Virus record (IMG/VR): IMGVR_UViG_3300037054_000361
Coordinates: 1 to 25,579 of that record
DNA length: 25,579 nt
Source: a virus
Reading direction: 5' to 3' (one strand)
Positions 7,295-25,579 of the stretch are shown here, in pieces (positions within the stretch are counted from its first letter, which is position 1; each line of letters opens with the position of its first letter). Position numbers and translations under genes: made by a program. The notes under the pieces are model-generated. The model searched no databases and was not told where the DNA came from. It saw only the letters and a program-made list of their open reading frames with translations.

Positions 7295-7297
7295 TGC

Positions 7298-7807
7298 GAG
7301 TTCACTGCGACCCACCGAGAAACTGGCAAGACATATTCTGTTGAGGCGAAGAGTCGGCATCGTGCCGGATTTCTCGGCTACCCTGGTGACCGGAGGCCGC
7401 TGAACGAAATTGAAGCCGACCTTTCGGGGTTGTTCGTCCCCGCCCCCCGGAAGGAGGCGAAATACGAGCGGATTGTCTTCATCGACGTTAACATGCCGCC
7501 TAGCGAATTGCCGACACCTCAGACGGAGTGGTTCAGAAAGGTCGCGTCGCAGGTTATTCGGTGGGAGGAAAATTCACAACTCAAGGACTTGCCGCCGGCG
7601 ATCGTGTTCCTAACGAATTTTCCATATCACTTTGTAGAGAAATCTGAGCCGCTCCGCGGCCAGACAGCGCTATTCTCCGGATTCAAAATGCCTGAATTCA
7701 ATATCACTAAGAGTGACCCAGCGCTTGTGCCGAGCAAGTTTCCGGCAATTTTCGCACTCCATGATTCGGTGTTACGGCACACGCAAGTTCCGCACGATCT
7801 CGGTTAG
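7298..7807 (+). pseudogene. Nuclease-like protein, 5' end lost
   Basis: A continuous frame from about 7298 reads EFTATHRETGKTYSVEAKSR, then a glycine-rich turn, ADLSGLFVPAPRKEAKYERI, FIDVNMPP, and PPAIVFLTNFPYHF, ending at 7807. The VEAKSR motif after an acidic beta strand fits the ExK of a PD-(D/E)xK nuclease core. No start codon with a ribosome-binding site precedes the conserved part: the frame runs straight into the antisense of the truncated integrase. A TTG at 7430 could start translation but would omit the ExK motif. I read it as the C-terminal remainder of a larger nuclease-like protein. The family name is unknown to me. Confidence 0.6.
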
Positions 7808-7985
7808 GGGTCCCAATGCGAATGGAAAGTATCGCGCCTCAGTACCGCCTTTCGGTCGAGCGGGTAGGTGCCGCGGGACAGCCCTAGGGAAAGGAGCGGG
7901 ACCGAACGCCCCGCGTGTATGGCGTATCTTGCGGGAGCCTGCAATTAACAACTCCGACCCTAAGCGATCCTCCGCGCCGCGGCGG

Positions 7986-10697: not shown

Positions 10698-10702
10698 CGC
10701 TG

Positions 10703-12694
10703 ATGCCTGATCTCATTACCCACGTCTGTGGAACTCACACGGCCGTCATCAACACGATGGGAATGCGCGAGATGCAGTCGCGTGCCTTTGACGCTCGCAA
10801 CGCGCAATTTCTGCTCATCAAGGCTCCGCCTGCCTCCGGCAAGTCACGCGCGCTCATGTATATCGGTCTGGACAAACTCGCGCATCAGGGCATCAAGAAG
10901 GTCATCGTCGCGGTCCCCGAGCGTTCCATTGGCAACTCGTTCAAGACCACGCCGCTCAAGCCGAGCGGATTCTTCGCGGATTGGCTGGTCACACCGAAAT
11001 ACAACCTGACAACCTCCGGCGGTGGACAGAAGACAGCGGCCGTCGCCGAGTTCCTCGCGTCCGACGAGTCGGTGCTCGTCTGCACGCACGCGACCCTTCG
11101 CTTTGCATATGAAAAACTCGGGGCCGAGGCGTTCGAGGACTGCGTCGTTGCCATTGACGAGTTTCATCATACGTCCGCCGACGCGGAATCCAAACTTGGG
11201 GAACTGGTTCGCGGCCTCATCGGCAACGGCAAGACGCACATCGTCGCTATGACCGGCTCCTATTTTCGCGGAGACACGTTGCCGGTGCTGCGACCTGAGG
11301 ACGAGAACCGCTTTACGCGCGTTACCTACACCTACTACGAGCAACTCGCTTCGTATCAGTATCTCAAGAAACTCGGAATCGGCTACCATTTTTACTCCGA
11401 GTCGTACATCACGGCCATTGAAGAAGTCCTCGATCTCTCCAAGAAAACCATCATTCACATTCCGAGCGTCAACTCCGTCGAATCTCCGAAGGGCAAGAAC
11501 GAACAAGTAGACGACCTGCTGGAGTTCATCGCGGACGGCGACACGAGCCGCGTCAACCGCGACACCGCCACGGGCTTTTACCACGTCACACGTCCGGATG
11601 GCACCGTTCTGAAAGTCGCGGATCTCGTTGATGATAGCCCCTACCGCGAAACAGTGCTCGCGAGTCTGCGGAGCGTCGAGAAGCGCGACGACCTCGACAT
11701 GATCATCGCGCTCGGCATGGCGAAGGAAGGCTTCGACTGGATTTGGTGCGAGCACGTGCTCACGGTCGGATACCGCAACTCGATGACCGAGGTCATCCAA
11801 ATCATCGGGCGTGCGACTCGGGACGCGGAAGGTAAGGCGCACGCGCAGTTCACGAACCTGGTTGCCTTTCCCACCGAAGACCAGGCAGTCGTGGCCGAGG
11901 CGGTCAACAACATGCTCAAGGCGATCTCTGTGTCACTCATCATGGAGCAAGTGCTGGCGCCCAATTTCAACTTTACAACAAAGGTGCCGGGCGCGCCGAT
12001 CGAAGAGCCGAAGCCGGGTGTGCCGATCCAGGTCAAGGGCTATCAGCCACCATCCACCGACCGTGTACGCCAGATCGTCGAGGAACAACTTGACGAACTC
12101 AAGGTTGACCTCTTTCAGGACCCTCTCATGAAGCTCGTGCAGGTCCATCCCGACGTGTATACGCCGGCCGAAATCAATACCACACTCATCCCGATGGTGA
12201 TTGCCAAGCGCTTCCCGGACCTCACTGAATCGCAAGTCAACGAAGTTCGGCACGCCGTCCTGCTCGACCTCAACTTCAAGAACGCCGTTTCTCCTCTTCC
12301 CGGCGACCCAAATCCATGGACGGGCGGCGAACTCGAAGTCAAACGCGAGGGCGAAAACGTTCTCATCAAACTCGCAAAGAGATTTGTTAACCTGGACGAT
12401 CTCTCGATAGACCTCATTGACAGCATCAACCCCTTCGAACACGCTTACGAGATTCTCTCGAAACACCTCGATGAGCGCGTCTTGCGCACAATTCATGGTA
12501 ACGTCGTCGCCGCACGGCTACCCATGAGCGACGAAGAAGCCGCGATGCTCTGGCCAAGCGTCAAAGCATTTGCAAAGAGTCACGAACGGGAACCGAACCT
12601 CAATGCGCAAGATCCGCGTGAACAACGACTTGCGCATGCGCTCTCAATCATCCGCGCGGCTAAGCGGAAAACTGAACGGGCAAACGCACTTTGA
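10703..12694 (+). CDS. DEAD/DEAH-box superfamily 2 helicase/translocase
   Basis: A 663-aa SF2 ATPase. Walker A is APPASGKS (41-48), the Walker B box is DEFH (152-155), motif III is MTGSYF near 190, and motif VI is QIIGRATR (366-373). The two RecA-like domains fill roughly residues 25-420. The remaining 240 residues are a helical, charged extension that may contact the methylase or nuclease. The ATG is 5 bases after the methylase stop, and the stop overlaps the TTG of the nuclease gene by 4 bases (TTGA), so all three genes form one translationally coupled operon. It would translocate along or remodel unmethylated DNA to license cutting, by analogy with type I and type III restriction motors. 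The family call is secure; the mechanism is inferred. Confidence 0.92.
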   Translation: MPDLITHVCGTHTAVINTMGMREMQSRAFDARNAQFLLIKAPPASGKSRALMYIGLDKLAHQGIKKVIVAVPERSIGNSFKTTPLKPSGFFADWLVTPKYNLTTSGGGQKTAAVAEFLASDESVLVCTHATLRFAYEKLGAEAFEDCVVAIDEFHHTSADAESKLGELVRGLIGNGKTHIVAMTGSYFRGDTLPVLRPEDENRFTRVTYTYYEQLASYQYLKKLGIGYHFYSESYITAIEEVLDLSKKTIIHIPSVNSVESPKGKNEQVDDLLEFIADGDTSRVNRDTATGFYHVTRPDGTVLKVADLVDDSPYRETVLASLRSVEKRDDLDMIIALGMAKEGFDWIWCEHVLTVGYRNSMTEVIQIIGRATRDAEGKAHAQFTNLVAFPTEDQAVVAEAVNNMLKAISVSLIMEQVLAPNFNFTTKVPGAPIEEPKPGVPIQVKGYQPPSTDRVRQIVEEQLDELKVDLFQDPLMKLVQVHPDVYTPAEINTTLIPMVIAKRFPDLTESQVNEVRHAVLLDLNFKNAVSPLPGDPNPWTGGELEVKREGENVLIKLAKRFVNLDDLSIDLIDSINPFEHAYEILSKHLDERVLRTIHGNVVAARLPMSDEEAAMLWPSVKAFAKSHEREPNLNAQDPREQRLAHALSIIRAAKRKTERANAL

Positions 12695-13932
12695 GAGAGC
12701 GCTTCGCTTCCTTCGCCGACATTCTTGCAGAAGACGATACACTCGGTCTCCTTGCATCGAAGCCTGATGGGCCATCACGTTCCAGCGAAGAAGACATATT
12801 TATTGGGCAGTTCGAGGCCATCAACGCATTCATCGATGAGCACGGAGTCGAGCCCGGCAGCACGGAGAACGGGCGCAATCCGAGCCTCAGCGAGTATACG
12901 CTCGAAGGTAATTTGGAGGCGTTCCGCGGCGACGATAATCACCGCGGATTGCTCGCGGCGTACGACCGGCACGTCTTGCTCGGGTCGGCCGCGTCCTCCG
13001 CGACGATCCCAACGAGCATAGACGAAATCCTCGCATCCGAGGATCCGTTGCTTTCCGGGCCCGCTGACGTCATCTTTGACCTCAAGCACGTCGCCGATCC
13101 GGCGGTTGTGAAGGTCAATACGCCGGACGAAATCGCGAAGCGCCGACCTTGCCCGGATTTCGAGCGCTTTGGACCCATCTTTGCGGAGATCAAGGAAGAC
13201 CTCAAATCGGGCCGACGCTACACGAAGCGCTTCGAGAGCGCGGAGAGCATCGTTCCCGGGGCGGTGTTCATCCTCAACGGGATCATCTCGTACGTCGCGT
13301 CCGTAGACGAGCGACAACGTCGCGGCAAGGACTACAACGGACGCATCCGGGTCATCTTCGACAACGGCACGGAAGCCAATTACTTGTGGCGCTCGTTCGC
13401 GCGCGCGTTCTACGAAGACGAAAACGGCCTGCAGATCCTCGAATCGACACCAACCGTGAGAGGGCCGCTCTTCGGCGGCGCCGGACATATTTCAGGACCC
13501 CTGTTTACAGGTGAGCCGGACAAAGACGAGTTTGGCGAGGTGAAGGGCACCGTCTACATCGTTGAAAGCCTCTCAGAAGACCCGAATATTATCGCGCTCA
13601 AGGGGAGACTCTACAAGATTGGCTTCACCACGCAGCCCCTCGAAAAACGGCTCGCTGATGTCGAAAAAGACCCGACCTTCCTCTGCGCCAAGGTTCAGGT
13701 TCGGGCCACCTACGAAACGAACTTCAGTCCCCGCAAACTTGAGAAGTTGCTGCACCAGTTCTTCGCGCACGCCAATCTCCAACTCGAGGTCGTGCTCGGC
13801 AGGCCAGTCGTGCCGAAGGAATGGTTCGTCGTTCCGCTCGATCTCGTCGAAGAGGGCGTGAGGCGCATCCTCGACCGCAGCATCATCAACTATCGGTACG
13901 ATGCAGTAAGTCGAAAGATTCTCCCTCGATGA
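12691..13932 (+). CDS. GIY-YIG (T5orf172-type) nuclease, effector of the operon
   Basis: A 413-aa protein with a C-terminal GIY-YIG domain. TVYIV (287-291) and LYKIGFT (307-313) are the two signature strands, R320 is in the catalytic arginine position, and E351 (KLEKLLHQFF) fits the metal-binding glutamate. The 280-residue N-terminal part has no nuclease motif I can name; its second half, with a beta-rich FILNGIISYVASVDE segment, may be a DNA- or partner-binding module. The TTG at 12691 overlaps the helicase stop. As the only recognisable nuclease in the operon, it is probably the cutting subunit that acts with the methylase and helicase. A stable inverted repeat lies 62 bases downstream. Confidence 0.88.
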   Translation: MRERFASFADILAEDDTLGLLASKPDGPSRSSEEDIFIGQFEAINAFIDEHGVEPGSTENGRNPSLSEYTLEGNLEAFRGDDNHRGLLAAYDRHVLLGSAASSATIPTSIDEILASEDPLLSGPADVIFDLKHVADPAVVKVNTPDEIAKRRPCPDFERFGPIFAEIKEDLKSGRRYTKRFESAESIVPGAVFILNGIISYVASVDERQRRGKDYNGRIRVIFDNGTEANYLWRSFARAFYEDENGLQILESTPTVRGPLFGGAGHISGPLFTGEPDKDEFGEVKGTVYIVESLSEDPNIIALKGRLYKIGFTTQPLEKRLADVEKDPTFLCAKVQVRATYETNFSPRKLEKLLHQFFAHANLQLEVVLGRPVVPKEWFVVPLDLVEEGVRRILDRSIINYRYDAVSRKILPR

Positions 13933-13994
13933 AGGCTACGAAGGAACCGAAAAGCGCGAAGTCCTGTCTACGGTAGACCGCGAGTTCGCGCGCG

Positions 13995-14035
13995 ATGCTG
14001 TCGGGAGCGGTCCACCGCCCTCTCCCGACAAGCAT
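13995..14035 (+). repeat. Long inverted repeat after the GIY-YIG gene
   Basis: ATGCTGTCGGGAG (13995-14007) pairs with CTCCCGACAAGCAT (14022-14035): 13 base pairs with one bulged A and a 14-base loop. No T-tract follows, so it is not a standard intrinsic terminator. It lies between the nuclease stop and the serine recombinase promoter and could be a transcript-end hairpin or a recombinase-related site. Confidence 0.6.
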
Positions 14036-14158
14036 GAAAGCGGCGTCACCGTGCAAGAAGCGTCCCAAACTTCCATGGTAATGGCGGGCGCGCGAAGGGA
14101 CGGCCTCATTGAAGGGTAGCTCGTGTACTTAACCCCCGCTCGTCATTTATAACAAGGC

Positions 14159-14187
14159 TTGAACGTTCGATGAAGCTGTGTTACGAT
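14159..14187 (+). promoter_or_regulatory. Candidate sigma-70-type promoter of the serine recombinase
   Basis: TTGAAC (14159-14164), a 17-base spacer and TACGAT (14182-14187). The expected transcription start falls at about 14194, exactly on the GTG proposed as start codon, which would give a leaderless mRNA. Confidence 0.45.
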
Positions 14188-14193
14188 GGGCAC

Positions 14194-14985
14194 GTGGAGA
14201 TCGTTTCGTATGTTCGGGTGTCGACGCACCGGCAGGGCGCCAGCGGGCTCGGTCTCGACGCGCAGCGCGCCGCGATCGAGGCATACTGCCGGCAACACGG
14301 TGCCACCGTGGCTAAGGAGTACCGCGAGGTCGAGTCCGGCAAGAACAACGACCGGAAGGCGCTCCGGCACGCCATTGCCCACGCTAAGCGCGTGGGCGCC
14401 AAGCTCGTGATCGGGAAGCTCGACCGGCTGGCCCGGAACGTGCACTTCATCAGCGGCTTAATGGAATCGAACATCGACTTCGTCGCCTGCGACCTCCCTG
14501 AGGCGAACCGGCTGCTGCTGCACATCATGGCGGCCGTCGCCGAGAACGAGGCCAAAGCGATCTCGGACCGCACGATCGCTGCCCTCCAGCAGGCGAAGGC
14601 GCGCGGGATAGCGCTGGGTGCGACGAACCCAAAAAGCCGCAACCTGACTGACGAGTCGCGCGCAGCTGGTGCGAGATCCACGCAGGCGAAGGCCATCAAG
14701 GCGTATGCCGCAGTGCGGCCGACGATCATGCGGATGCGTGCGGCTGGCTCTTCGCTCGCTGAGATCGCCGCGGCGCTGAATGACGAAGGCCACACGACAC
14801 GCACCGGGAAGCCCTGGAACGCGATGCAGGTCAGCCGTGTGCTGGAAACCGCGCAACGCGAGACCGCAGCGTTCGACCGAGTCATGACACCGCCTGTAGA
14901 CGGCGTGGCCCGCGCAGCGGATCTGACCGAGTGGGCCACCGCCAACGACGCGCACGATGACGCGATGAATCCGGACGATGGTTAG
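14194..14985 (+). CDS. Serine recombinase (resolvase/invertase family)
   Basis: A 263-aa small serine recombinase. The catalytic serine is in IVSYVRVSTHRQG (residue 10 from GTG 14194). It is followed by LGLDAQRAAIEAYC, the active-site arginine region KLDRLARN, the E helix (IMAAVAENEAKAISDRTIAAL), and a C-terminal Recombinase-type helix-turn-helix (SSLAEIAAALNDEGHTTRTGKPW) that binds the site. GTG 14194 puts the serine at the family-typical position and sits right after a plausible promoter; ATG 14170 would add eight residues. It could resolve or invert DNA of a nested element. No partner site is recognised, though the inverted repeat at 13995-14035 is close by. Confidence 0.92.
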   Translation: MEIVSYVRVSTHRQGASGLGLDAQRAAIEAYCRQHGATVAKEYREVESGKNNDRKALRHAIAHAKRVGAKLVIGKLDRLARNVHFISGLMESNIDFVACDLPEANRLLLHIMAAVAENEAKAISDRTIAALQQAKARGIALGATNPKSRNLTDESRAAGARSTQAKAIKAYAAVRPTIMRMRAAGSSLAEIAAALNDEGHTTRTGKPWNAMQVSRVLETAQRETAAFDRVMTPPVDGVARAADLTEWATANDAHDDAMNPDDG

Positions 14986-15180
14986 CCGCGCGACCCCACC
15001 TTGGCGGAGCGCTCGCGGGGATCGCGTCGCCGCGTCCGGGGCGTGCTACCGCCTCCGCGGTCTCGTCGTACTTTGCAGAGCCCGGGTCCTATTTTGCTCT
15101 TAGTGAGCAATTGGAGCGAATCGTCACTCGTTCGACCTGCTCAAGAGCGTACCGCGGGCCTGAGCGCGAATTCTTGTCGT

Positions 15181-15678
15181 ATGAGCGATTCGGACGACCC
15201 CCTGGAAGCTGCACGAAAAGCCAAAGAGGCGGCTGAGGCAAAGAAACGTGCTGAGGCTGCCCAAGAAGCCGCCGAGATAAACGGAATGCTTCAGAAATGG
15301 GGAGACGATCTCGCTGCGGCCTTAGACGCGGCGGCGGCTACGATCCCGTCACTGGAGGGATCATCTAATCACAAGGTCGCGATCGAAGCCAACGAAGCCG
15401 CACTGTCTTACCGTCGTCGCGGAACTTCTTTCGAACTGCGGGCCAAAGCACGAGCGATCTGCCAGTCGACATCGACGTCATTGGTCAAGGGCCAGCTAAT
15501 AATCAGCGGTGACGAGCCGGGTGAGCAAATGAACACCTGGCTCCTCGAAGCGACTCTCCAGCCCAATGATCGCGGCCCGGAGATGGGTTACTATTCGTAC
15601 GGTCTTCAGCCGTTAGGGGGCAGTGTTAGCGTCGACCCGGTAGGCTTCGCGATGTTCCTGAAAACACTGGCAGGCTAG
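15181..15678 (+). CDS. Hypothetical protein with Ala/Lys coiled coil
   Basis: A 165-aa protein that starts MSDSDDPLEAARKAKEAAEA. Residues 8-45 are a strongly helical Ala/Lys/Glu coiled coil. A 110-residue domain follows with alternating strands (GTSFELRAKARAICQS, LVKGQLIISGD, WLLEATLQPND) and ends FLKTLAG. ATG 15181 is preferred to the in-frame start at 15001 because the stretch in between is Arg/Pro/Ser-rich and unlike protein. I do not recognise the family. It may be co-regulated with the following two genes. Confidence 0.6.
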   Translation: MSDSDDPLEAARKAKEAAEAKKRAEAAQEAAEINGMLQKWGDDLAAALDAAAATIPSLEGSSNHKVAIEANEAALSYRRRGTSFELRAKARAICQSTSTSLVKGQLIISGDEPGEQMNTWLLEATLQPNDRGPEMGYYSYGLQPLGGSVSVDPVGFAMFLKTLAG

Positions 15679-15737
15679 CGAACGTAACCCAAACGCTCGG
15701 GGAATGGGCTACCGCGTCCTGCGCGCTTCGACAAACA

Positions 15738-15785
15738 GCAACGCCGGGGCGACCGAACCTAGGCTCCCGGACGATCCGGCGTTGC
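15738..15785 (+). repeat. Perfect 10-bp inverted repeat in intergenic gap
   Basis: GCAACGCCGG (15738-15747) and CCGGCGTTGC (15776-15785) are perfect reverse complements around a 28-base loop that contains CCTAGG. It begins 60 bases after the preceding stop and ends about 70 bases before the next gene. There is no T-tract. It may be an RNA hairpin or a protein-binding site. Confidence 0.5.
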
Positions 15786-15856
15786 CTCCGTCCTCGAGTG
15801 GCAATGGTCGAGTCGCCTGCTGCAAAGCGCGTATTGATGTGAATGAGTAATCGGCA

Positions 15857-16451
15857 ATGAACTGGGACGAGAAAGCCAAAAACGATCCTCTAACTGGCAT
15901 CGAGCAGTTTGAGGCAGCGTTTCGCGCTCGGCGCAATCTTCTGCAGACCTTATTCTACTCGACGCGAAACAGCTGTAGCGACGCATGGGCATTCCATCTG
16001 CGTGCTGAGAAGAGCAACGCCCCAGGGGGGTCGGCTATATCCGGACTGCTGACAAGCATCGTATATTCATTTGATAAGACCGTGGCCGAGCAGACTGCTC
16101 AGGACGCGGCTTGGGCGCTTATGCTAATCGTCGATTATGCCCTCCAGCGACTTGGGGATAGCATAAGGCCAGTAGACACTCGCGATCTTGGGCCCAAACT
16201 CTCAACAGGCGTACGGCTTAGCGAGGTGATTTGGGCACTTGCAAACCAGGCGCGCCATCTTCACGAGTGGATGCAAAACCCCCACGGAAAGGCTTGAAGA
16301 AAATCCTTCGGTAACGATCATCCGATCCTTACAGCACGACCCGCTAAATCCTAACGTGGCCCGCGAAGTCATTGCCGCATTACCGTATGAAGCCTACGTT
16401 GATTTTGAAGATGCCGTTTTCGCTATCGCCGCCGACGCACGAAACGCTTGA
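15857..16451 (+). pseudogene. Hypothetical protein, split by a frameshift at a C5 run
   Basis: The first frame (15857-16297, 146 aa) reads MNWDEKAKNDPLTGIEQFEA to ALANQARHLHEWMQNPHGKA and stops. A second frame continues without a start of its own as NPTERLEENPSVTIIRSLQ... to FAIAADARNA at 16451. Reading four C's instead of five at 16279-16283 joins the two smoothly (HEWMQNPTERLEENP) into a 197-aa protein. The cause may be a true mutation, a slippery or phase-variable tract, or a sequencing error. The protein is helical, and an ANQARHLHEW stretch resembles conserved positions in a family of uncharacterised proteins; I cannot name it. Confidence 0.6.
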
Positions 16452-16517
16452 CAGATCTTCGCCAAGAATGAGCAGTCGCGCGTTGGTCAGTCCATGCGAT
16501 GAGTGGGGTTACACGTA

Positions 16518-17318
16518 ATGAGTACGATACCGACAGGCCCAGATGCAGCTGACGTCGTCACCCTTGGAAATGCGGTTCTGAGCAAATTCTACGAACTTTC
16601 AATCACCAAAATGAATCGGCTGGCCGGTCGTGCAGGCCTGGACGTATCGCAGATTCCGTTCGCAAGTGAAAGTAGAGCGAAGATCCAGCCCGCGATATCA
16701 GCGATTTTTGCTGGCATGTCAGACGAGAGACGATTAGCAGTGCTCACTTTGATCGCCGACGGGCTCATGGATGAGCACAGAAACAATGAGGCGGAGACAG
16801 CCGACTTAGCCAACCTCCTTCGTAGGCACGGTTTTCAGTACATCAACGGGTCCTTCATCCGTGTGGCCGCGTTTGACGAACGGGAGCGCCCATTTCTTCC
16901 GAACATGGCCTTCGACGAGATAACCGATGCTTTTTCGCGCCTTGCTGCAGGTGACGACAGTGGCGCAGTAACTAAGGCGTGCGGCGCCGTGGACTCCACT
17001 ATGCAGTCTGCGTATGCGAAGCTCGGCCTGGGCCAGCCGCCCGCTTCGTTCCAGACAAAGGTCAATACCGTATTTGATCGCCTCGACGTGTACGCAAAGC
17101 TCAGGGACAGCCTAGTGGCTCTAAACGTTCCTCCTGTTGACGCTCAGAAAGTCGCAGACGAGGCACACGAGACGATTAAGCACGCTGCAGAACTCCTTCA
17201 GGTGGTCCGGCGTGTCCAAGGTGACGTACATGGCACGAAGCTAGCAGATAGCAGTCTCGCTTACGATGCCATCAAGCTTTGTTCAGTCGTGTGCGGGCTG
17301 CTGCGCCCGTATCTCTAG
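16518..17318 (+). CDS. Abortive-infection family protein (Abi_C-like C-terminus)
   Basis: A 266-aa protein from ATG 16518; an in-frame GTG at 16503 would add 5 residues. The N-terminal half is helical, with a central FIRVAAFDERERPFLP. The C-terminal half (about residues 135-266) resembles the Abi_C domain: a GAVTKACGAVDSTMQSAYAK helix, FQTKVNTVFDRL, and a final LQVVRRVQGDVHG ... SSLAYDAIKLCSVVCGLL. The R...H pair in this last block fits HEPN-type RNases linked with phage abortive infection. It lies next to the terminase module of the right-hand element, so it is a plausible defence cargo. I am fairly sure of the C-terminal similarity and less sure of activity. Confidence 0.7.
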   Translation: MSTIPTGPDAADVVTLGNAVLSKFYELSITKMNRLAGRAGLDVSQIPFASESRAKIQPAISAIFAGMSDERRLAVLTLIADGLMDEHRNNEAETADLANLLRRHGFQYINGSFIRVAAFDERERPFLPNMAFDEITDAFSRLAAGDDSGAVTKACGAVDSTMQSAYAKLGLGQPPASFQTKVNTVFDRLDVYAKLRDSLVALNVPPVDAQKVADEAHETIKHAAELLQVVRRVQGDVHGTKLADSSLAYDAIKLCSVVCGLLRPYL

Positions 17319-17347
17319 CCTTTATTATTCCTACTAGATAATAGAGC

Positions 17348-17373
17348 AGCATCGGCGGTCGTACGCCGACGCT
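17348..17373 (+). terminator. GC-rich hairpin downstream of the Abi gene
   Basis: AGCATCGGCG and CGCCGACGCT pair over 10 bases with one A-C mismatch and a 6-base loop, 30 bases after the Abi stop. The following sequence (GGCCTTTCC) has only a weak T-tract, so it is a possible terminator at best. Confidence 0.4.
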
Positions 17374-17402
17374 GGCCTTTCCTCAGTTTGCCCGTTAACA
17401 AT

Positions 17403-17431: not shown

Positions 17432-17433
17432 GA

Positions 17434-18702
17434 TTAGATGCCCCGGCGCGTTCCCTCGTTCGTTCCGCGCGCCATCGCAATTCCATAGCAGAAACAATCC
17501 AGGAGGTCATCGCTAGCCCCGTCCTGCGAACCGATCCGGAAGCTGGTTATTTGTGCTATCAGGTGGTTCGCCGATCGTCCTTTATGGACTTTCCTTTTAT
17601 GAAACGCCATGTCCGTGATTTTGACATCACCGCGGAAGACGTAGGGACTCGCCGCGATGGCACGCTCGTTTTTCCCCATCGACGTCAGTTTGCTCTCGAT
17701 CGGATGCGCAGGCCACCCGCTGTTTCTTGCCTGCTGCAGAAGCACCGTCCCGGAGGCCTTATCTTCGATCATAACGCCACTCGATCCCATTCGCGCTCCG
17801 CATTCCCGGCTCAGTTCTTCGAGCCGGGCGAAGACGGACGGCAACCACCCTTCCAGCGCCGCTCCCTCGATTTGAAGAATATCCCAATCCAAGATGTGAA
17901 GGCACGGATTGGCGAGCGAATTGTATGCCCAAAAAACTGCGCCGGTCGCGTCGTGCTCAAGCCCGGACTTGATCGCCGTATCCATGGTCGCGAACACCGT
18001 GTCGCACCGCACCGGCATGGGCACCGGAGCCCCGTCGACGAGCAGCGCGTCCATCGTGAAGAAAGCAACTCCCGCCCAATCGACGAACTCGGCGAGATAC
18101 TCCTGACGGTAGACCTCAGGCGAATTGTCGCGTTCCAGCCGCGCGAGCTCGTCCTGCGGGAGATACGGATTGGCCGCAGTGGGAGCGTGGAATTCAACGA
18201 ACCCATGCGCGGGATCAGTGCAGATGTTGTAAAACCAGTTCCCCTCATCTTTGCCGGCGGGGGTCGAGAGCGCCCAGCCGACACCTCGATAATCGAGCAG
18301 CGTGGGTTTGATCGATTTGTCCCAGATGTCTTGCATGTCCGGACTCGCGAAAGCCGCCTCATCGATCATGACGCCGTGGTATTTGCGGGAGCGCCCCGCG
18401 CGCGGGTTGTTCAGCGTCCAGAAGTCAACGCGCCCGCCACCTAAACACCGAATCACGCAATCGATCTTAGAGGCCGAGAGTGTGATTGGTGCAAGTATCT
18501 CGAAAATGTCGCGGTAGGTTTCGGACGTGATCTTGTAATCCGGCGCGAAGAGACCCCAGTTTTGCCCCCGCGCTACACCATCGCAAATAATCGTCGAGGC
18601 CAGCATCGTCTTACCCCACCGCCGACCGCAACGGATTGCCATATATCGCCCCGGGACGTTCCAGGCATCGATCTGGCCGGCATGAAGCGTTGGTAGCATC
18701 AC
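17434..18702 (-). CDS. terL: Phage terminase large subunit
   Basis: A 422-aa packaging motor. Walker A is CGRRWGKT (25-32), Walker B is VMIDE (111-115), and AGRSRKYHG leads into it. A coupling-motif-like ALSTPAGK follows. The C-terminal RNase H-like nuclease domain shows an acidic strand TMDTAIKSGLEHDATGAV, then VMIEDKASG and a late DDLLD. The length fits typical TerL. The start is GTG 18702 or the next codon ATG 18699, overlapping the TGA of terS. It translocates DNA into a prohead and cuts it. No portal or capsid gene follows: an AT-rich hairpin ends the operon. It must therefore either serve a helper phage's capsid or be a relic of a prophage. Confidence 0.93.
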   Translation of the reverse strand: MMLPTLHAGQIDAWNVPGRYMAIRCGRRWGKTMLASTIICDGVARGQNWGLFAPDYKITSETYRDIFEILAPITLSASKIDCVIRCLGGGRVDFWTLNNPRAGRSRKYHGVMIDEAAFASPDMQDIWDKSIKPTLLDYRGVGWALSTPAGKDEGNWFYNICTDPAHGFVEFHAPTAANPYLPQDELARLERDNSPEVYRQEYLAEFVDWAGVAFFTMDALLVDGAPVPMPVRCDTVFATMDTAIKSGLEHDATGAVFWAYNSLANPCLHILDWDILQIEGAALEGWLPSVFARLEELSRECGARMGSSGVMIEDKASGTVLLQQARNSGWPAHPIESKLTSMGKNERAIAASPYVFRGDVKITDMAFHKRKVHKGRSANHLIAQITSFRIGSQDGASDDLLDCFCYGIAMARGTNEGTRRGI

Positions 18703-19208
18703 TGTGAGCGTGGCGGCAATCCTCCCTCGATAACGATTTTGACCGCGCCGGACTGCTCGGTCTCGAGCCGCTGCCGACCGAACTCCTTAGACCAGCGGTG
18801 CTCGAGCATCCACGCTGCAGCCCTCCAGTCGTTCAGCGCCGACTTCGAGATCAGCGTTACCAGTTTGACCTTGGACATCTCGCGCGCGTGTTCGACCCGC
18901 GCCGCGAATTCCGGGTCGGCCTTCCGCCGGCGCCCGAGGGTGTCGTCCGAGATCCCGGCGTAGGCGCACGCCTCCCGAAACGACATCGCCGCGTCGCGGA
19001 TCCCGCCGAGGATCTTGGCTTCGACCTCGGGCGTAAGCACGGTCGGGCCGCCCTTCGGATTCGGGACGCGCTTCGCGCGCGCGCGTTGGCCGTCCGCATG
19101 AGCCGCAGGATTAACCCCGTGTTCGCCCCCCGGGGGGGCGCTGGGGGAAGCGGGCGCCGCTGGAGCCTTCTCCCGCGCCGTGCGGCCGTGTCGCGCCTTT
19201 GTGGACAT
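18699..19208 (-). CDS. terS: Phage terminase small subunit
   Basis: A 169-aa protein. The N-terminal 60 residues are disordered and Ala/Pro/Arg-rich. A helix-turn-helix follows (SFREACAYAGISDDTLGRRR, with KADPEFAARVEHAREM after it) and then a coiled region (WRAAAWMLEHRWSKEFG), as in terminase small-subunit-like proteins that select the packaging site. ATG 19208 lies 2 bases after the stop of the methyltransferase gene, and its own stop overlaps terL. In satellites, a private TerS redirects the helper's packaging to the satellite's DNA; here it comes with its own TerL. Confidence 0.82.
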   Translation of the reverse strand: MSTKARHGRTAREKAPAAPASPSAPPGGEHGVNPAAHADGQRARAKRVPNPKGGPTVLTPEVEAKILGGIRDAAMSFREACAYAGISDDTLGRRRKADPEFAARVEHAREMSKVKLVTLISKSALNDWRAAAWMLEHRWSKEFGRQRLETEQSGAVKIVIEGGLPPRSQ

Positions 19209-19210
19209 CG

Positions 19211-20509
19211 TCAGCAGCCCGCCTCTGGCCGCCGGGCCTCGAGTCCGGTGTGCGCTTCCCACCGTGCCACAATAACGTCACAGTAGAGCGGATCGAGTTC
19301 GATCGCCCGGCAGACGCGACCGAGCCGCTCGCAGGCAATCACCGTTGACCCGGAGCCGGAGAACGGGTCCAGCACGATTCCGCCGTCGCGCGAGCCGTCG
19401 CGCAGGAGCTGCTCAAGCAGCGCGACCGGCTTCATCGTCGGGTGCAGATCGTTCTTTGTCGGGACATCGTACTCAAGCACGTTTGTGCGCGCGTGACTGC
19501 CGTAGAAGCGATGGCGTTCGGGCCATCCGAAGATCGCTACGCCGGCGACCTCCTTGGCTTCGACCGGGGGTTCGCCGAACGTGATCGGCTCGTAGACTTG
19601 GTTGTAGTCCTTACGCGAGAGCACCGGACGGTTCTTGACCCACAAAAGCATATCGTGCCACTTCCAACCGAGAGCGTCGATTGCGATCCGGAGGTTGTGC
19701 ATCTCCTGGCTCGACATGAAGATGTAGAACGCCGCGTAGGGCGCCCATGGGATGATCGAGAGCCACGAGCGGAACCAAATCGCATAGTCGGTGCGGTCGT
19801 CGTTGACGATGTCGCGGTGCGCGGTTGCGCCGCCATTCCGCTGCGCTGCATCGCGCGACTTCGCGCCATAGCTCACGCCGTACGGCGGATCGGTTAGCAG
19901 CAGCTCGACTACGTCTTCGCCGAGTACCGCGGTGATCGTCGCAGCGTCGGCAGCATCGCCACACACCAGCCGATGCTGGCCAAGGCGGATGACGTCGCCG
20001 GGCTTCGTTCGCGGCGTATCGTATGGCGGAGGTGGGACTTCGTCGGGATCAGACCCGAATGAGTGCGCGATCTCGTCGGTACGCAGCGCACCAAGCCGCA
20101 AGTCCTCGAACAAGTCTGGATTTGCTGCGGCCAGTTCGTCGAGAATCGCCTGCAGCTTGTCGGTGAACTCCCCAACGATGTGGTGGCTGTTGAGCGCGAT
20201 ATTCAACGCGCGTTCTTCGGTGTCGTCCAGGTCGACCCAGGTGACTGGCACGACCTTAGCCTTCTTCGCTTTGATTGCTTTGAGCCGCTGGTGACCGCCG
20301 ACAACGTGCATCGTGCGACGGTTCACGACGATGTCCTGAACCAAGCCGAATCGGTCGATCGACTTCTCGAGTCCCGCCATGGCGGCCGGATTGATCCTGC
20401 GCGGATTGTAGGGCGCGTTCTTCAAATCGCGGACCGGGACCATTTCGCGCGTGACCACGGGCGAAATGCAAGCGCGCTGACTATCGAAAACGTCTTCGCG
20501 CGTCCTCAC
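19211..20509 (-). CDS. ParB-domain/DNA methyltransferase fusion
   Basis: A 432-aa protein. Residues about 20-110 form a ParB/Srx-like N-terminal domain (MVPVRDLKNAPYNPRRI, HVVGGHQRLKAIK). Residues about 170-420 form an N4/N6 DNA methyltransferase with DPPY (207-210) before FSGSGST (383-389), the order of beta-class enzymes. TMKPVALLEQLL and RAIELDPLYCDVIVARWE complete the fold. The GTG at 20509 overlaps the stop of the preceding gene (GTGA). The fusion is common in phages and phage-like elements. It probably methylates element DNA to escape restriction or marks DNA before packaging, since it lies immediately upstream of terS-terL. Confidence 0.92.
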   Translation of the reverse strand: MRTREDVFDSQRACISPVVTREMVPVRDLKNAPYNPRRINPAAMAGLEKSIDRFGLVQDIVVNRRTMHVVGGHQRLKAIKAKKAKVVPVTWVDLDDTEERALNIALNSHHIVGEFTDKLQAILDELAAANPDLFEDLRLGALRTDEIAHSFGSDPDEVPPPPYDTPRTKPGDVIRLGQHRLVCGDAADAATITAVLGEDVVELLLTDPPYGVSYGAKSRDAAQRNGGATAHRDIVNDDRTDYAIWFRSWLSIIPWAPYAAFYIFMSSQEMHNLRIAIDALGWKWHDMLLWVKNRPVLSRKDYNQVYEPITFGEPPVEAKEVAGVAIFGWPERHRFYGSHARTNVLEYDVPTKNDLHPTMKPVALLEQLLRDGSRDGGIVLDPFSGSGSTVIACERLGRVCRAIELDPLYCDVIVARWEAHTGLEARRPEAGC

Positions 20510-20865
20510 GGCCCTGCCCCGTCCTTCGGCGTCGGGTAGTGCTTACTCCATGACGCCCAACAGCGTCGGCACGTCTCGCCGGGCTGCCCACAGTGGAACG
20601 CGCACACGGGTGGGGTTTGCGGCCACCGCCCCTCGCGGAGAAGCAGCGCAGCTGTGCGGACGGCATCCGCCGGCGTCGGTATGATCCCGATCGGGCGTTG
20701 TTCGCGACGGAGCAGCTCGCACACGATCGCAGGCTTGTGCTCGCGGACCGCGTCGATCGTAGGCTGGTCGAGCTTGCTTCCCGGCCGCAGGACGATCTCG
20801 TCGCCGTCGAGCGCGGCCGAGACGCCGACGCGGTCTAGGCGATCGAGGAGCGCCGCGGCGGTCAT
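20506..20865 (-). CDS. TubC_N-like small protein with Cys cluster
   Basis: A 119-aa protein. Residues 1-50 (LLDRLDRVGVSAALDGDEI, LRPGSKLDQPTIDAVREHKP) match the TubC N-terminal docking domain pattern, here outside any polyketide or peptide synthase. The C-terminus has CAFHCGQPGETCRRCWASW, four cysteines and a histidine that could bind zinc. The start overlaps the primase stop (TGATG), and the end overlaps the methyltransferase start. From memory, such proteins recur next to phage and plasmid primases, so a protein-docking role in replication is plausible, but no function is proven. Confidence 0.75.
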   Translation of the reverse strand: MTAAALLDRLDRVGVSAALDGDEIVLRPGSKLDQPTIDAVREHKPAIVCELLRREQRPIGIIPTPADAVRTAALLLREGRWPQTPPVCAFHCGQPGETCRRCWASWSKHYPTPKDGAGP

Positions 20866-22508
20866 CAGACCCTCACCTCGTCGAAGATAGGCGAAGTAGA
20901 TGAAGAGGATGAATTTTCAGGTTTGCGCTCGCGTGCGCGGGATGAGCTAAAACCCCGATTTTCATCCTCGTCATCTACTTGGTCATGCTTGCCATTCTCG
21001 CCGACAGGGCCATCCCCGCGGTCGTCGCGCAGACCGATTCCCCGGAAGGTCACTTGTCCGCCGCTTAGGCCGTCGGTGATCGTCCCCGCGAACTGTCGGC
21101 GCAACTCGGCGAACATGGCGCGCGAGGTTAGCGTCTCGTGTTCCCCGTTGTCCTCGGCCCATTTGCGATAGGCTGCATGGAGTTTCGGCCCTCGAACGAC
21201 GGCGCCGGGCTTGCGGACGCAGACGTCGTCAAAAAACCGTTGGACGATTGACTGCTCTTCGCGATACGTGTTTGTCGCGGCCATCACAGTCTCCGGAGCG
21301 CAGAGTCCGACCCGTTGCCATTCCAAACATCCGCGCACGGCCCACGCTAAGATCCCCGGCAATTCGGCCTTGAGCTTGTCGACGATCGCCGTGTCGCGGC
21401 TCTCGCCGCTGAACTTCGCGAGGAAGGAAACGAGTTGAACGCGCCGCCAAATTCCGTGATCGGTTCCTCGAATTTCGGGTCGGTGATTCGTTGCGAGTGC
21501 GAGCTTAAATGCCGGCAAGAATTCGAAGATGTTCTGGTGCAAAAACCGCGCTGGGATTCGATCGCGACCAGTAATAATCTTTACAAATGATTCGTTTAAG
21601 CGGATGCCTTGCGTCGGCTCAGCCGACGCGACGAACCGCGCGCCGGCGAAGCGGGCGACGTCAGGGGACGCCGCGTTGCCATCCCGCCGCTTCTGCACAA
21701 ACGTCGCGATGTCTGCAGTTATCGCGTACTCGCCGAGGATCAGCAGGATGACTTCGATGAATTTCGACTTCCCATTCTCTCCGTCGCCCCAAAAAATCAG
21801 GAAGACTTCCTCGCTCGTCTCTCCCGTGAGGACGTATCCGACGAATCGCCGCATGTAGGCAACGAGGTCCGCGTTCGTCTTGCCTTCTTCGTGAATGAAG
21901 ACTTCGTCCAAGAACTGCAGGAAGCGCGGACACGTCCCGTTTGGGTCGTACTCGATCGGCGCCAGCTTCGAGATCAAGTCCGCGGGATTGTGTGGCCGCA
22001 GTTCTCCGGTGCGAAGATCGATCGTTCCATTCAAGACGTTAAGGAGAAACGGATTCCGGTCGAGGTCGGCGTTGTTGATCGCGAGTCGCGTCGCCGCTTG
22101 ACGAAGAACTGCGCGCTGCGTTCGATCTTTCGATAGGAATATCGCCCAATCGATGGCGCGCGCGCGTTTTTCTTCGTCTTCGCTCTCGGCGGCAATCCGC
22201 AGCAATAAGCGCGCCAGCCTCTGGACGTCGGCGAGCGCCAAATCGCCAGCGCTGTCATCACGCCATCGGCGATTGTCCCAAACGGCAAACCGACCCCGCT
22301 CCCGCAAGTACTTCAAGCGCCCAACGTAAAGTTCGGCGACGAGATCGCCCAGCAAGAGCTCCGTCGGCACCTTCGCCCTGCGCAGAAACTTGATTACCAT
22401 CTCAATAAGCTGCGGGGCCAGCGGTTGCTCGAACGCGACGTCGGCTTCGGGGAGCGCATCGACCCCGGTCAGCGCGACCTGAAGTTCCCGATCTGCGCCG
22501 CCGTCCAT
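20865..22508 (-). CDS. P4-family phage/plasmid primase-helicase
   Basis: A 547-aa protein from ATG 22508, which overlaps the upstream stop by one base (TGATG). D5_N-type and SF3 helicase domains are present: NPFLLNVLNGTIDLRTGELR, then Walker A GDGENGKS (241-248), a B-type strand RFVASAEPTQG, and sensor-like ALATNHRPEIRGTDHGIWRR. The C-terminal 60 residues are disordered, acidic and serine-rich (VDDEDENRG, ENSSSSSTSPIF). It melts the origin and unwinds DNA for element replication, and pairs with the zinc-finger primase upstream. The DNA of the disordered tail contains a 20-bp inverted repeat (20894-20980), an unusual constraint on a coding end. Confidence 0.93.
   Translation of the reverse strand: MDGGADRELQVALTGVDALPEADVAFEQPLAPQLIEMVIKFLRRAKVPTELLLGDLVAELYVGRLKYLRERGRFAVWDNRRWRDDSAGDLALADVQRLARLLLRIAAESEDEEKRARAIDWAIFLSKDRTQRAVLRQAATRLAINNADLDRNPFLLNVLNGTIDLRTGELRPHNPADLISKLAPIEYDPNGTCPRFLQFLDEVFIHEEGKTNADLVAYMRRFVGYVLTGETSEEVFLIFWGDGENGKSKFIEVILLILGEYAITADIATFVQKRRDGNAASPDVARFAGARFVASAEPTQGIRLNESFVKIITGRDRIPARFLHQNIFEFLPAFKLALATNHRPEIRGTDHGIWRRVQLVSFLAKFSGESRDTAIVDKLKAELPGILAWAVRGCLEWQRVGLCAPETVMAATNTYREEQSIVQRFFDDVCVRKPGAVVRGPKLHAAYRKWAEDNGEHETLTSRAMFAELRRQFAGTITDGLSGGQVTFRGIGLRDDRGDGPVGENGKHDQVDDEDENRGFSSSRARERKPENSSSSSTSPIFDEVRV
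20894..20980 (+). repeat. 20-bp inverted repeat inside the primase 3' end
   Basis: The left arm 20894-20913 and the right arm 20961-20980 match as reverse complements at 19 of 20 positions; the arms begin AAGTAGATGA and end TCATCTACTT. The loop is 47 bases. It lies wholly inside codons for the disordered acidic/serine tail of the primase, and the two arms encode different peptides. It could be an RNA structure that divides replication from packaging expression, or a DNA site such as an origin or packaging signal. Confidence 0.7.
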
Positions 22509-23155
22509 CACGCGATTCCTCTGTGGCGCGCCAGTTCGCGTAGGTCGCCCGCGGCGCGACTCGCGGCCTCGAACCATTCGTCTGGCGAGTGTTTACGGTC
22601 GGGGTCTACGGACGACTCGATCAGCACCTCGCGTAGACGGCGCTCGAACAGCGCGGGCCAAGCGGGATCGTCGTCGTGCGGCGCACCCTGCCAGGCGAAC
22701 GCCGCGATCGGTGCGAGCTTGACGCCATAGATCGCAGCGACGCGCGCGCGCACCACGTTTATGTCCGCCGAGCGTAACGGCCGCGCGTACCCCAACTCGG
22801 CGAGGATCTTATCGCGAGTGCGTTTCAGTTCGCGCTCGATCGCGACGCGCACCGTTGCGCGTGGCGTCCGTCGGAAACGTTGGCGCTCGGTGGCGATCTC
22901 CGCTTGCCGCTGGCGCCAGGTGTCAGTGTTCGGGAACAGGTCTCTGAGCTCGAGCTGCAGCGCGTGCATGACCGCCTCGGCGGTGCAGCCGGCGTGACAC
23001 TTCAACAGCACGGCGCCGCCGGCTCCCTCTCGAACCGCGAGTGTACCGCCGCGGCTGCCGTGCGCCGGGCACCGCGCCCGAAACGCATGATGCTGGCCGC
23101 TAACGACGTGCAGACGCGATCGCACGAGGTCGATCGGATGCGGCGCGACGGTCAT
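22508..23155 (-). CDS. CHC2-type zinc-finger primase component
   Basis: A 215-aa protein with an N-terminal zinc finger: C29-x2-H32 (RARCPAH), C53 and C57 (LLKCHAGC), then the MHALQLELRDLFP segment that follows this finger in bacterial and phage primases. No TOPRIM or polymerase motif is present; the remainder is Arg-rich and helical (residues 75-215). It probably supplies template recognition to the helicase-primase encoded next. The ATG at 23155 overlaps the stop of the HTH gene, and its stop overlaps the primase start, so expression is tightly coupled. Confidence 0.82.
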   Translation of the reverse strand: MTVAPHPIDLVRSRLHVVSGQHHAFRARCPAHGSRGGTLAVREGAGGAVLLKCHAGCTAEAVMHALQLELRDLFPNTDTWRQRQAEIATERQRFRRTPRATVRVAIERELKRTRDKILAELGYARPLRSADINVVRARVAAIYGVKLAPIAAFAWQGAPHDDDPAWPALFERRLREVLIESSVDPDRKHSPDEWFEAASRAAGDLRELARHRGIA

Positions 23156-23397
23156 CGCCCGTCGTCCACCTCGGCGCGAAGGCGGTCGGAAATGTATTTG
23201 GTGATCGCGCGCCGCGAATAGAGCCTGCGCCTCGCGATCTTGCAGGACCGGATGACGCCATCGTGCGCGAGTTGTCTAAGCAGCGTTCGACCTATGCCGC
23301 CCAGCAGCTCGCGCGCTTGGGCCTCGCCGACCAACGAATCCTGAGGGTCTTTTTCTTTGGCGTCCGCGGGAGGGCGCCGAGTGTCGAGCGATATCAT
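23152..23397 (-). CDS. HTH excisionase/AlpA-like DNA-binding protein
   Basis: An 81-aa protein. After a short charged leader it contains SLVGEAQARELLGG, then RTLLRQLAHDGVIRSCKIAR and RRLYSRRAITKYISDRL, the layout of a MerR-type/HTH_17 winged helix as in excisionases and AlpA-type activators. ATG 23397 has a GGAG about 8 bases upstream. It is the first gene of the seven-gene operon and is divergent from the regulator at 23525, so it probably directs excision or switches on the operon. Confidence 0.8.
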   Translation of the reverse strand: MISLDTRRPPADAKEKDPQDSLVGEAQARELLGGIGRTLLRQLAHDGVIRSCKIARRRLYSRRAITKYISDRLRAEVDDGR

Positions 23398-23431
23398 GCG
23401 GCCATCTCCGGGGAGGGGACCCGACAGTCAT

Positions 23432-23447
23432 GGCCGTATCTATGGCC
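23432..23447. promoter_or_regulatory. Candidate operator between divergent regulators
   Basis: GGCCGTA-TC-TATGGCC is a near-perfect palindrome (one mismatch) in the 127-base gap between the HTH gene (start 23397, minus) and the regulator (start 23525, plus). ATGGCC also occurs twice in tandem here. The position suits a switch operator, but nothing shows which protein binds. Confidence 0.4.
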
Positions 23448-23524
23448 TTATCGTGCCTTCCGAAGTCCCGCGGGCGCCCGCCTCGACCCTCACCGATTAC
23501 GCTAACAAAGCGAAGGATCGGCGC

Positions 23525-24310
23525 ATGCAAGCGATAGCACGGATCGCGCTCTCGCAGGGTGAGTCGGTGAGCTCGCTCGCACGCAGACTCGGCGGTGGCC
23601 GCGATGCATCTAACATCCGTCGCCACTTCGAGCTCAATAAACGCGGGCAGGGTGTGGTCGAGCTTTACGTCGAGAGGCTTGGCCGCAACGAGGTCGAGCG
23701 TAATCTCATCCGGGAGTACCTCGACATCGTCGATGGCCGCGTTGACGCACGGGCCGCGCGCGAGGCGCTCATCAACGACCTTCGCGCTCGTGAGCTAAGC
23801 CTGCGTGAGGGCGCGCTCTCGGATCTCCTGGCCGCGATCGAGGCGATCGACGACAAGACGCTACTTCCGGCGCTCCAGGCGTATCTGCGAACGAGGCGAG
23901 AGTTGAGTCTTTCCCTCGTCTTCCCGTCATCGTTCGTGACACCGCTCATGCTTTCGTTCGTCGGGCGTAAGCTCGACCTCGCATTTGCAGTATTCGCGGC
24001 CGCGATCAACGAGCACGTCGACGTCGAGGCATTCCTAGCCTCCGAACGCACGCCCGCCGAAGATTGCTTATGGCTCCTCTGGGTGCACATGCAAATGCCC
24101 GATTCGCCGTTTACAGATGACGACCGTGAAGCAATCATCGCAACTGCCGCGGGTCGCTTACTAATGGGCGACATCGACCCGATTTCGATGCTGCGTTATG
24201 TGGACCGTCTACGTAAGCACACTGCGCGGCACGCGGCAGTACTACGTCAACGGGCCGGTTTGACAATCCAAGAGCAATTTATCAAAACCAATGGAACTGA
24301 GGAGGGCTAA
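23525..24310 (+). CDS. Putative element regulator in phage-repressor position
   Basis: A 261-aa protein. ATG 23525 is chosen because AAGGA lies 7 bases upstream; the frame is open from 23357, but that would overlap the divergent gene and leave no promoter space. The N-terminus holds an HTH-like block (ALSQGESVSSLARRLGGG, then SNIRRHFELNKRG), followed by helices rich in Arg/Glu (ELYVERLGRNEVERNLIREY) and a long helical C-terminal domain with no peptidase motif I can see. It directly precedes the integrase with a 0-base gap and diverges from the replication operon, as repressors do in phages and satellites. The exact family is unknown. Confidence 0.7.
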   Translation: MQAIARIALSQGESVSSLARRLGGGRDASNIRRHFELNKRGQGVVELYVERLGRNEVERNLIREYLDIVDGRVDARAAREALINDLRARELSLREGALSDLLAAIEAIDDKTLLPALQAYLRTRRELSLSLVFPSSFVTPLMLSFVGRKLDLAFAVFAAAINEHVDVEAFLASERTPAEDCLWLLWVHMQMPDSPFTDDDREAIIATAAGRLLMGDIDPISMLRYVDRLRKHTARHAAVLRQRAGLTIQEQFIKTNGTEEG

Positions 24311-25579
24311 ATGAACGACAAACGGTTACGACAAAGGGGTTTCAAGAACGGCAAGCCTGTCTGGACCGGCCGCGCTCGGTCGAAGAAGGGCGACGGGCCG
24401 ACGCACCCCCGGTTCACGTACATGGGGAACAAGAAAGACGCGGAGAGGGCTTGGATCAAGTGGCTCGCGTCGATCGAGGATGGCAGCTTCGTTCCGATGG
24501 ACCGCGCAACGTTCGGGCACTACCTCGATGAGTTTCTCGCTGGCGCCAAGACGACGCTGGCGCGCAAAACGTGGGAACGCTTCGAAGGAATGGCTCGCGT
24601 TCACGTCATTCCGAAACTCGGCCGCCTCCCGCTGCAGAAACTCGCGACGTCGCAACTCAACAAGGCTTACGCCGAATGGCGAGAGAGCGGCCTCGCCGGT
24701 CAGACCGTGATCCATCACCATCGCCTGATCCATCGGGTCCTTGCGCAAGCGCTGCGCGAGGGTCGCGTGCGGCAGAACGTCGCAGCGATCGCCGACAAGC
24801 CCAAAGCACCGCGGCGCGAGATGCGGTGCCTATCGTCCGCAGAGATTTGCCTTCTCATGGCTGCCGCAGCCGGGACCGATCTTGCGGCACCCGCCGCCGT
24901 CGCGCTTGCGTGCGGGGCACGTCGCGGCGAGTTGCTCGGCCTCAAGTGGATGGACGTCGATTTCGAGCGCGGAACGCTCTCGATCCGCCGATCGCTCGAA
25001 CAGGTGCGCGTCGTAAAGGGACGCGACGCCGAGGGAGTGGTCGTCGCTGACACGTTCGTCGCCGAGAAGCCGCCCAAGAGCGGTAAGCCCCGCGTCATTG
25101 TGCCGCCGGCCTGCGCCGTCGAGTTGCTGAGGGAACTACGTCTCGAGCGTGCGAGGACAGAGGGGCACATTCCGACCGGCTACGTCTTCCCCGATCCCAA
25201 GGGAGGCGGCGGACCGTGGGCCCCGCACAAGATCACGGACGCCTTTCGGGAGTTAGCCCGCAAGGCCGGCCTCGTTCCGATACGCGCTCGCGCGACGACG
25301 CGCGCCGGCCGCCGGGCGAAGCCCGCCGCTCCGAAGCTCCCGAAGGAGCAGCGCACGCCGACGATCACGTTTCACACGCTACGGCACACGTGCGCCAGCC
25401 TGCTGCTCGCCCAAGGGGTTCACCCGAAGATCGTTCAGGAGATGCTCGGGCACAGCTCCGTCGCGATAACGATGGACCTCTACAGCCACGTCACTCCGTC
25501 GCTTCAGGCCGAAGCTGCCCAGCGGCTCGATGCGATCCTGCGGCCTTCGCTGGCGGCCGTCAGCGGGTTCGGCGCATAG
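24311..25579 (+). CDS. int: Tyrosine integrase (phage/ICE type)
   Basis: A 422-aa integrase with complete catalytic set: R204 (GARRGELLGLKW), H355/R358 (FHTLRHT), H381 (LGHSS) and Y391 (DLYSHV). The N-terminal arm-binding part (residues 1-60) is Lys/Arg-rich; the SAM-like core-binding domain spans about 65-165. Between ARKAGL and TFHTLRHT lies a 25-residue basic insert (ARATTRAGRRAKPAAPKLP), not usual in this family. ATG 24311 follows the regulator stop with no gap and has a GAGGAGGG site 5-10 bases upstream, so the two are co-transcribed. It should integrate the element at a tRNA-type site; the att site is probably just past the window. Confidence 0.95.
   Translation: MNDKRLRQRGFKNGKPVWTGRARSKKGDGPTHPRFTYMGNKKDAERAWIKWLASIEDGSFVPMDRATFGHYLDEFLAGAKTTLARKTWERFEGMARVHVIPKLGRLPLQKLATSQLNKAYAEWRESGLAGQTVIHHHRLIHRVLAQALREGRVRQNVAAIADKPKAPRREMRCLSSAEICLLMAAAAGTDLAAPAAVALACGARRGELLGLKWMDVDFERGTLSIRRSLEQVRVVKGRDAEGVVVADTFVAEKPPKSGKPRVIVPPACAVELLRELRLERARTEGHIPTGYVFPDPKGGGGPWAPHKITDAFRELARKAGLVPIRARATTRAGRRAKPAAPKLPKEQRTPTITFHTLRHTCASLLLAQGVHPKIVQEMLGHSSVAITMDLYSHVTPSLQAEAAQRLDAILRPSLAAVSGFGA

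Follow-up and report, generated by a model that had tools for sequence, protein, structure and literature searches.

The right 8.1 kb of the window, by which we mean the whole stretch of DNA analysed here (the complete IMG/VR record, G000, 25579 bases), form an integrative element (17434-25579) in which the terminase subunits TerS and TerL are the only hallmark genes of tailed phages, as in a cryptic element of the NitKor-E1 kind. This combination of genes is real and not random. On balance, we take it to be an integrative capsid-less satellite that probably packages itself, using its own complete TerS-TerL pair, into the procapsid of a helper phage. More tentatively, we suggest that it could represent a distinct satellite mode that evolved more than once: such elements would bring TerS and TerL, in many cases accompanied by a ParB-methylase and a serine recombinase, would take only procapsid and tail from the helper, and would supply the missing step from PICIs to cf-PICIs.

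Layout and genes of the element

The record is cut at its right end exactly at the stop codon of an integrase gene. This gene and a 317-aa gene lie on the plus strand, and the opposing operon on the minus strand runs in the order HTH_17, primase zinc-finger part, D5/P4 helicase, small ORF, ParB-methylase, TerS and TerL. Adjacent ORFs of the operon overlap by 1-70 bases, and from the HTH gene to TerL they behave as those of a single operon would. The element comprises the following features.

24311..25579, plus strand: tyrosine integrase, 422 aa (PF00589, PF14659, phrog_1)
23357..24310, plus strand: putative regulator, 317 aa, co-oriented with the integrase gene (no Pfam or PHROG match)
23152..23397, minus strand: HTH_17-like regulator of the excisionase/AlpA type, opening the operon (PF12728, E 1e-4, a weak match under the Pfam cut-off)
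22508..23155, minus strand: primase zinc-finger part (phrog_6088, DNA primase N-terminus)
20865..22577, minus strand: D5/P4-type primase-helicase (PF08706, E 1e-30; phrog_6088, E 5e-118)
20506..20865, minus strand: small ORF (no Pfam or PHROG match; L019 has a counterpart in this position, 43% identical)
19211..20509, minus strand: ParB-domain N4/N6 DNA methyltransferase (PF02195, PF01555, phrog_498)
18699..19262, minus strand: TerS, whose true start may be internal (phrog_4102, E 1e-18)
17434..18702, minus strand: TerL, full length, with uninterrupted ATPase and nuclease (phrog_2, E 1e-36; PF03237)
17347..17374, no strand: hairpin resembling a terminator, between terL and the gene convergent with it (11-pair stem)

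An earlier note on this DNA had described the same gene order and coordinates, which hold in the ORF coordinates and in the Pfam and PHROG searches. The hairpin that it placed after terL, at 17347-17374 with a stem of 11 pairs, is real (one found, against 0.3 expected in shuffled sequences), whereas its description of the small ORF as TubC_N-like found no confirmation, the searches returning zero Pfam or PHROG matches. In an alignment with its family, TerL keeps the Walker A motif, the DE residues and the C-terminal acidic residues. Integrases 44-52% identical to that of the window occur in Eremiobacterota MAGs, and the D5 helicase and the 317-aa regulator, used as queries against viral contigs, returned zero relatives. 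Neither a tRNA, part of a tRNA or Rfam match nor a convincing direct repeat was found that could mark att sites in the window.

Search for structural genes

That the element has a terminase pair of its own and no capsid, portal or tail genes, as the earlier note had proposed, was confirmed with Pfam, PHROGs and six-frame HMM searches with positive controls. The HMMs were built from genes common to many phages of the same TerL group, namely those for the portal, head and capsid-region proteins, and were run on six-frame translations. The control phages L131, L132 and L134 matched the structural HMMs at 1e-20 to 1e-217; the window, the element of its relative L019 and the G006 element (both described below) gave TerL only, with no portal, head or capsid-region match. 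Among the main ORFs of the left part of the record (1-17.4 kb), Pfam and PHROGs detected no head or tail genes. By PHROGs and six-frame HMMs the window has no portal, protease, major capsid protein or connectors of the cf-PICI type, and the portal, capsid and tail gene set of a tailed temperate phage is likewise absent by Pfam, PHROGs and six-frame HMMs. A tail-terminator match at 5193-5453 (E 3e-4) was judged to be due to chance, being sub-threshold, 86 aa long and without neighbours. The record is a cut provirus with its left border and both att sites beyond sight, and the absence of a capsid therefore refers to the 17 kb read leftward from the element.

The left 17 kb of the record

These 17 kb contain genes of defence type, and the stretch that meets the element at terL is its probable cargo.

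7713..17318, plus strand: candidate cargo block (MmeI domains, DEAD, T5orf172/MUG113), made up of the features below except the serine recombinase
7713-10697, plus strand: MmeI-like type IIG restriction-modification enzyme (MmeI domains)
10703-12694, plus strand: helicase (DEAD)
12691-13932, plus strand: GIY-YIG protein (T5orf172/MUG113)
14170..14985, plus strand: serine recombinase of the resolvase/invertase type (PF00239, phrog_125)
starts at 15001, 15857 and 16503, plus strand: three genes without an assigned family

The serine recombinase is 46% identical to one located downstream of terL in L019. The MmeI-like type IIG enzyme, the helicase and the T5orf172/GIY-YIG protein follow one another in a row (7713-13932) and are a possible composite defence operon. 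Further to the left lies the C-terminal part of a second tyrosine integrase (6704-7360), the N-terminal half of which is gone; it is the remnant of another element, and the left part of the window may thus be a separate island. At the left end of the record, a plus-strand gene (1-708) with a match to the PADLOC model 'cll' and a minus-strand 'Beta protein' gene (695-2008) with matches to PD-Lambda-2_C models face each other, and the two may form a defence pair.

The closest relative

The closest relative of the window is L019, on contig PMHO01000003.1 of a Candidatus Eremiobacterota MAG. It is 90% identical in TerL, 90% in the ParB-methylase and 70% in TerS; its integrase (26% identical), regulator, replication protein and cargo differ from those of the window, and the 342-aa protein beside its integrase has no detectable similarity to the 317-aa gene. 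At the DNA level the two match over 17433-20653 of the window with 86% identity, and the match ends at the terL stop codon. The L019 element adjoins the 3' half of a tRNA-Ala gene, and its integrase is flanked by host genes. Behind its terL there are an 869-aa gene, a serine recombinase and then the contig end, with no portal and no capsid gene in these 5 kb. A ParB-methylase/TerS/TerL block is thus common to two elements whose integrases, replication genes and cargo differ, and both are portal-less, which argues for a satellite. Three IMG/VR contigs (L002-L004) considered as additional relatives are 100% identical to L019 and are no independent copies, and the window and L019 are the only two independent members known of the close lineage.

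The 869-aa protein of L019 (11471-14080) has no Pfam, PHROG or PADLOC match, and by eye its C-terminal part resembles a PD-(D/E)XK nuclease. The same genome carries a second trace of a terminase, an 86-residue C-terminal TerL remnant, 56% identical, that adjoins a solute-binding protein gene (L107, 10217-10558, G001:C49). In another genome, beside a tRNA-Lys, lies a probable terminase-less cousin (L125, 9065-13649, G117:C33), in which no terminase is seen; it has an integrase (52%), a regulator, a small gene of HTH type and a replication protein of 835 aa that is 47% identical to that of L019 over 262 aa.

The earlier note had proposed looking for co-occurring helper prophages, and none was found: the draft MAG that hosts L019 contains no intact related prophage and no helper, and among 149 genomes of the phylum a related portal occurs in a single other one.

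Phages with the same type of TerL

Ordinary temperate phages have the same gene order in their first half. A portal gene lies at most 6 kb behind terL in 184 loci with this TerL type, and in a few phages of the group up to about 8.5 kb beyond it. The nearest phages (L027 and L129-L136, TerL 66-74% identical) are temperate and tailed, with the portal directly behind terL. According to the earlier note, close relatives with portal and capsid genes directly after terL would make this copy a deleted prophage; such genes are absent in L019 and appear at 66-74% TerL identity. In the TerL tree the window and L019 form a clade with 100/100 support nested within the phages, and a second clade apart from it, again with 100/100 support, unites L031, L032 and L037. 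TerS has moved further than TerL: it is 27-33% identical to phage TerS where TerL is 68-74% identical, and the nearest phages are 46-61% identical in TerS among themselves.

Within this TerL family the neighbouring genes also set the capsid-less loci apart. A fused ParB-methylase lies upstream of TerL in the window, L019 and L031 and within 3 kb upstream in 0 of 141 portal-bearing loci; a resolvase-like gene lies downstream on the same strand in L019, L031, L032 and L122 and, within 10 kb, in no portal-bearing locus. As a general mark of satellites the ParB-methylase was rejected, since many phages carry it before TerS, TerL and portal and the contrast holds only inside this TerL family. The order ParB-methylase/TerS/TerL/portal is common in other phages, including Javan117, AcaML1 and many IMG/VR contigs, which implies that the operon is of phage origin.

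Other capsid-less loci

Capsid-less copies arise in at least two separate, supported TerL clades. In the second clade, L031 has a ParB-methylase, two TerS-like ORFs and TerL, followed by small ORFs and a large serine recombinase, with no portal; in L037 the DNA behind terL is too short to judge. No TerL of the L031 type was found at 1e-60 in 385 alphaproteobacterial genomes.

A complete example comes from another genome of the same phylum as L019. This 19 kb element (G006:C3:106595-125677) is bounded by a 99-bp repeat (94%), the right copy of which sits in an intact tRNA-Phe, and contains a D5 primase, a DNA polymerase, a split TerL, a serine recombinase and an integrase; none of its ORFs qualifies as a portal or capsid gene. 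Its TerL consists of separate ORFs for the ATPase (phrog_7579) and the nuclease (phrog_27743) and shares only about 23% identity with that of the window, and the element is therefore a parallel case from another lineage. The two TerL ORFs (L122, 15985-18104, G006:C3) lie in the same frame, with a second nuclease-like ORF, a diverged paralogue, behind them.

Loci of low TerL identity that show no portal (L013, L014, L017, L022-L026, L163 and L164) were left uncounted because the portal model may miss their portals, as were L036, L238 and L242, which have too little DNA downstream; L232 and L237, likely sister loci of L238 and L242, have a distant portal. No portal appears in 4.8 kb of L230, which otherwise carries no sign of a satellite.

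Selection on the packaging motor

Between the window and L019, dN/dS is 0.14 both for TerL, with a dS of about 0.45, and for the ParB-methylase; within TerL it is 0.09 for the nuclease and 0.16 for the ATPase. Phage TerL pairs, many of which share sequences and which are therefore not independent, have a median of 0.047 and lie mostly under 0.14. TerL is thus clearly constrained, under purifying selection that is somewhat weaker than in phages. For TerS the value is 0.66 (0.55 in its core), against 0.25 or less in all phage TerS pairs. A TerS value this high is compatible with a shift in packaging specificity as well as with loosened constraint, and a single pair cannot tell these apart; taken together with a TerL at the top of the main phage range, it may reflect relaxed constraint.

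Proposed mode of action and alternative explanations

As a satellite, the element would reside in the chromosome through its tyrosine integrase, as is seen in its kin at tRNA-Ala (L019) and tRNA-Phe (the G006 element). An incoming phage would trigger the HTH operon, and the D5 helicase/primase, judging from its family, would replicate the element into concatemers. TerS would then select the element's own DNA, and TerL would dock on the portal of the helper procapsid and fill it. The resolvase-type serine recombinase may resolve multimers, because two or more copies of about 20 kb would fit a head of about 50 kb, and the ParB-methylase may mark or protect the element DNA. The operon would have come from phage modules, with the late genes lost in an ancestor whose lineage persisted without them. 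The earlier idea of a satellite with its own motor is favoured by the portal-less L019, the two TerL clades, the purifying selection and the G006 element. It falls short of proof, neither virion, helper nor induction having been seen.

The main rival, which we consider rather unlikely, is a defective prophage that lost all its late genes and acquired cargo behind terL, and whose terminase is a relic still to decay. The order from replication genes through ParB-methylase and TerS to TerL is normal in phages, TerLs at 66-74% identity have a portal right behind them, TerS changes quickly and the constraint on TerL is looser than in phages; the helper is missing, a C-terminal TerL remnant lies elsewhere in the L019 host genome, and the precedent NitKor-E1 was itself interpreted as a relic (PMC6563490). 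Yet in both elements all operon ORFs are open at a dS of about 0.45, and the phage-like DNA ends at the same base. A relic would require either that exact losses happened twice independently or that a capsid-less ancestor was long-lived, in which case TerL should have drifted towards a dN/dS of 1, and a second TerL clade also contains capsid-less copies. The terminase might instead cut the element's own concatemers or interfere with helper packaging, the filling being left to the motor of the helper. Other satellites are known to interfere with helper packaging (PMC6092414, PMC10690885), cargo of defence type may be present in the element, and an arms race would fit the fast evolution of TerS; a whole motor is unnecessary for interference, however, and conservation extends to both TerL domains and is strongest in the nuclease (0.09 against 0.16 for the ATPase), which makes this reading improbable.

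An ordinary prophage or cf-PICI with its capsid genes beyond base 1 or 25579 would fit a cut provirus in which no att sites are seen, but is very improbable. The right end is the integrase, and the 17 kb on the left, longer than the roughly 8.5 kb that separate the farthest portals of the group from terL, hold defence-type genes and the remnant of another integrase; moreover, the L019 integrase is flanked by host genes, the 5 kb beyond its terL are without a capsid gene, and the G006 element is complete and capsid-less.

Comparison with known systems

Known satellites either borrow the TerL of their helper or bring motor and capsid together, and the self-packaging satellite proposed here stands between the two. 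Of the terminase, PICIs encode no more than TerS, and they rely on the TerL of the helper (PMC6092414). The element resembles PICIs and SaPIs in having integrase and regulator on one strand and a replication operon on the other, with a packaging gene at the end of the operon, cargo and no capsid genes (PMC6092414); it differs in having a full-length TerL of its own (17434-18702), and no stl/alpA or capsid-remodelling family was identified in the window. The cf-PICIs encode both terminase subunits together with HNH, portal, protease, major capsid and connector proteins (PMC10690885). The element has the TerS and TerL of this set, and none of the HNH, portal, protease, major capsid or connector genes was found in the window.

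With P4-like satellites it has in common a P4-type primase-helicase (PF08706, phrog_6088) and a tyrosine integrase (PF00589); the Sid, Psu and delta families are not among the window's matches in general family searches. PICMI satellites and AH14b are likewise capsid-less with integrase and replication genes of their own, and differ in being without terminase genes (PMC10803314, PMC4936722). The DNA of PICMIs fills full-size helper heads as concatemers (PMC10803314). Among phages, L027 and L129-L136 belong to the same TerL clade, and Javan117 and AcaML1 have the same order of early and packaging genes; all of these differ in the portal and capsid genes behind terL.

The closest likeness, drawn by gene content and from the published description, is to NitKor-E1 of Thaumarchaeota, which has a tyrosine integrase, restriction-type cargo and TerS adjoining TerL with no other viral gene; its authors called the function enigmatic and thought a relic likely (PMC6563490). 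It differs in its archaeal host and in being a single element without evidence from selection or lineage. The 'new class' of the earlier note is accordingly too strong a term, TerS and TerL without other viral genes having been described in NitKor-E1 in 2019 (PMC6563490), and beyond this one close published match further precedent in the literature is possible. If the proposed mode of packaging is true, TerL can work on a foreign portal, the element is a middle step in the evolution of satellites, and searches for satellites in poorly studied phyla, Eremiobacterota among them, gain an extra rule. NitKor-E1, of which it was written that the 'function remains enigmatic' (PMC6563490), would then move from a relic to a testable mechanism.
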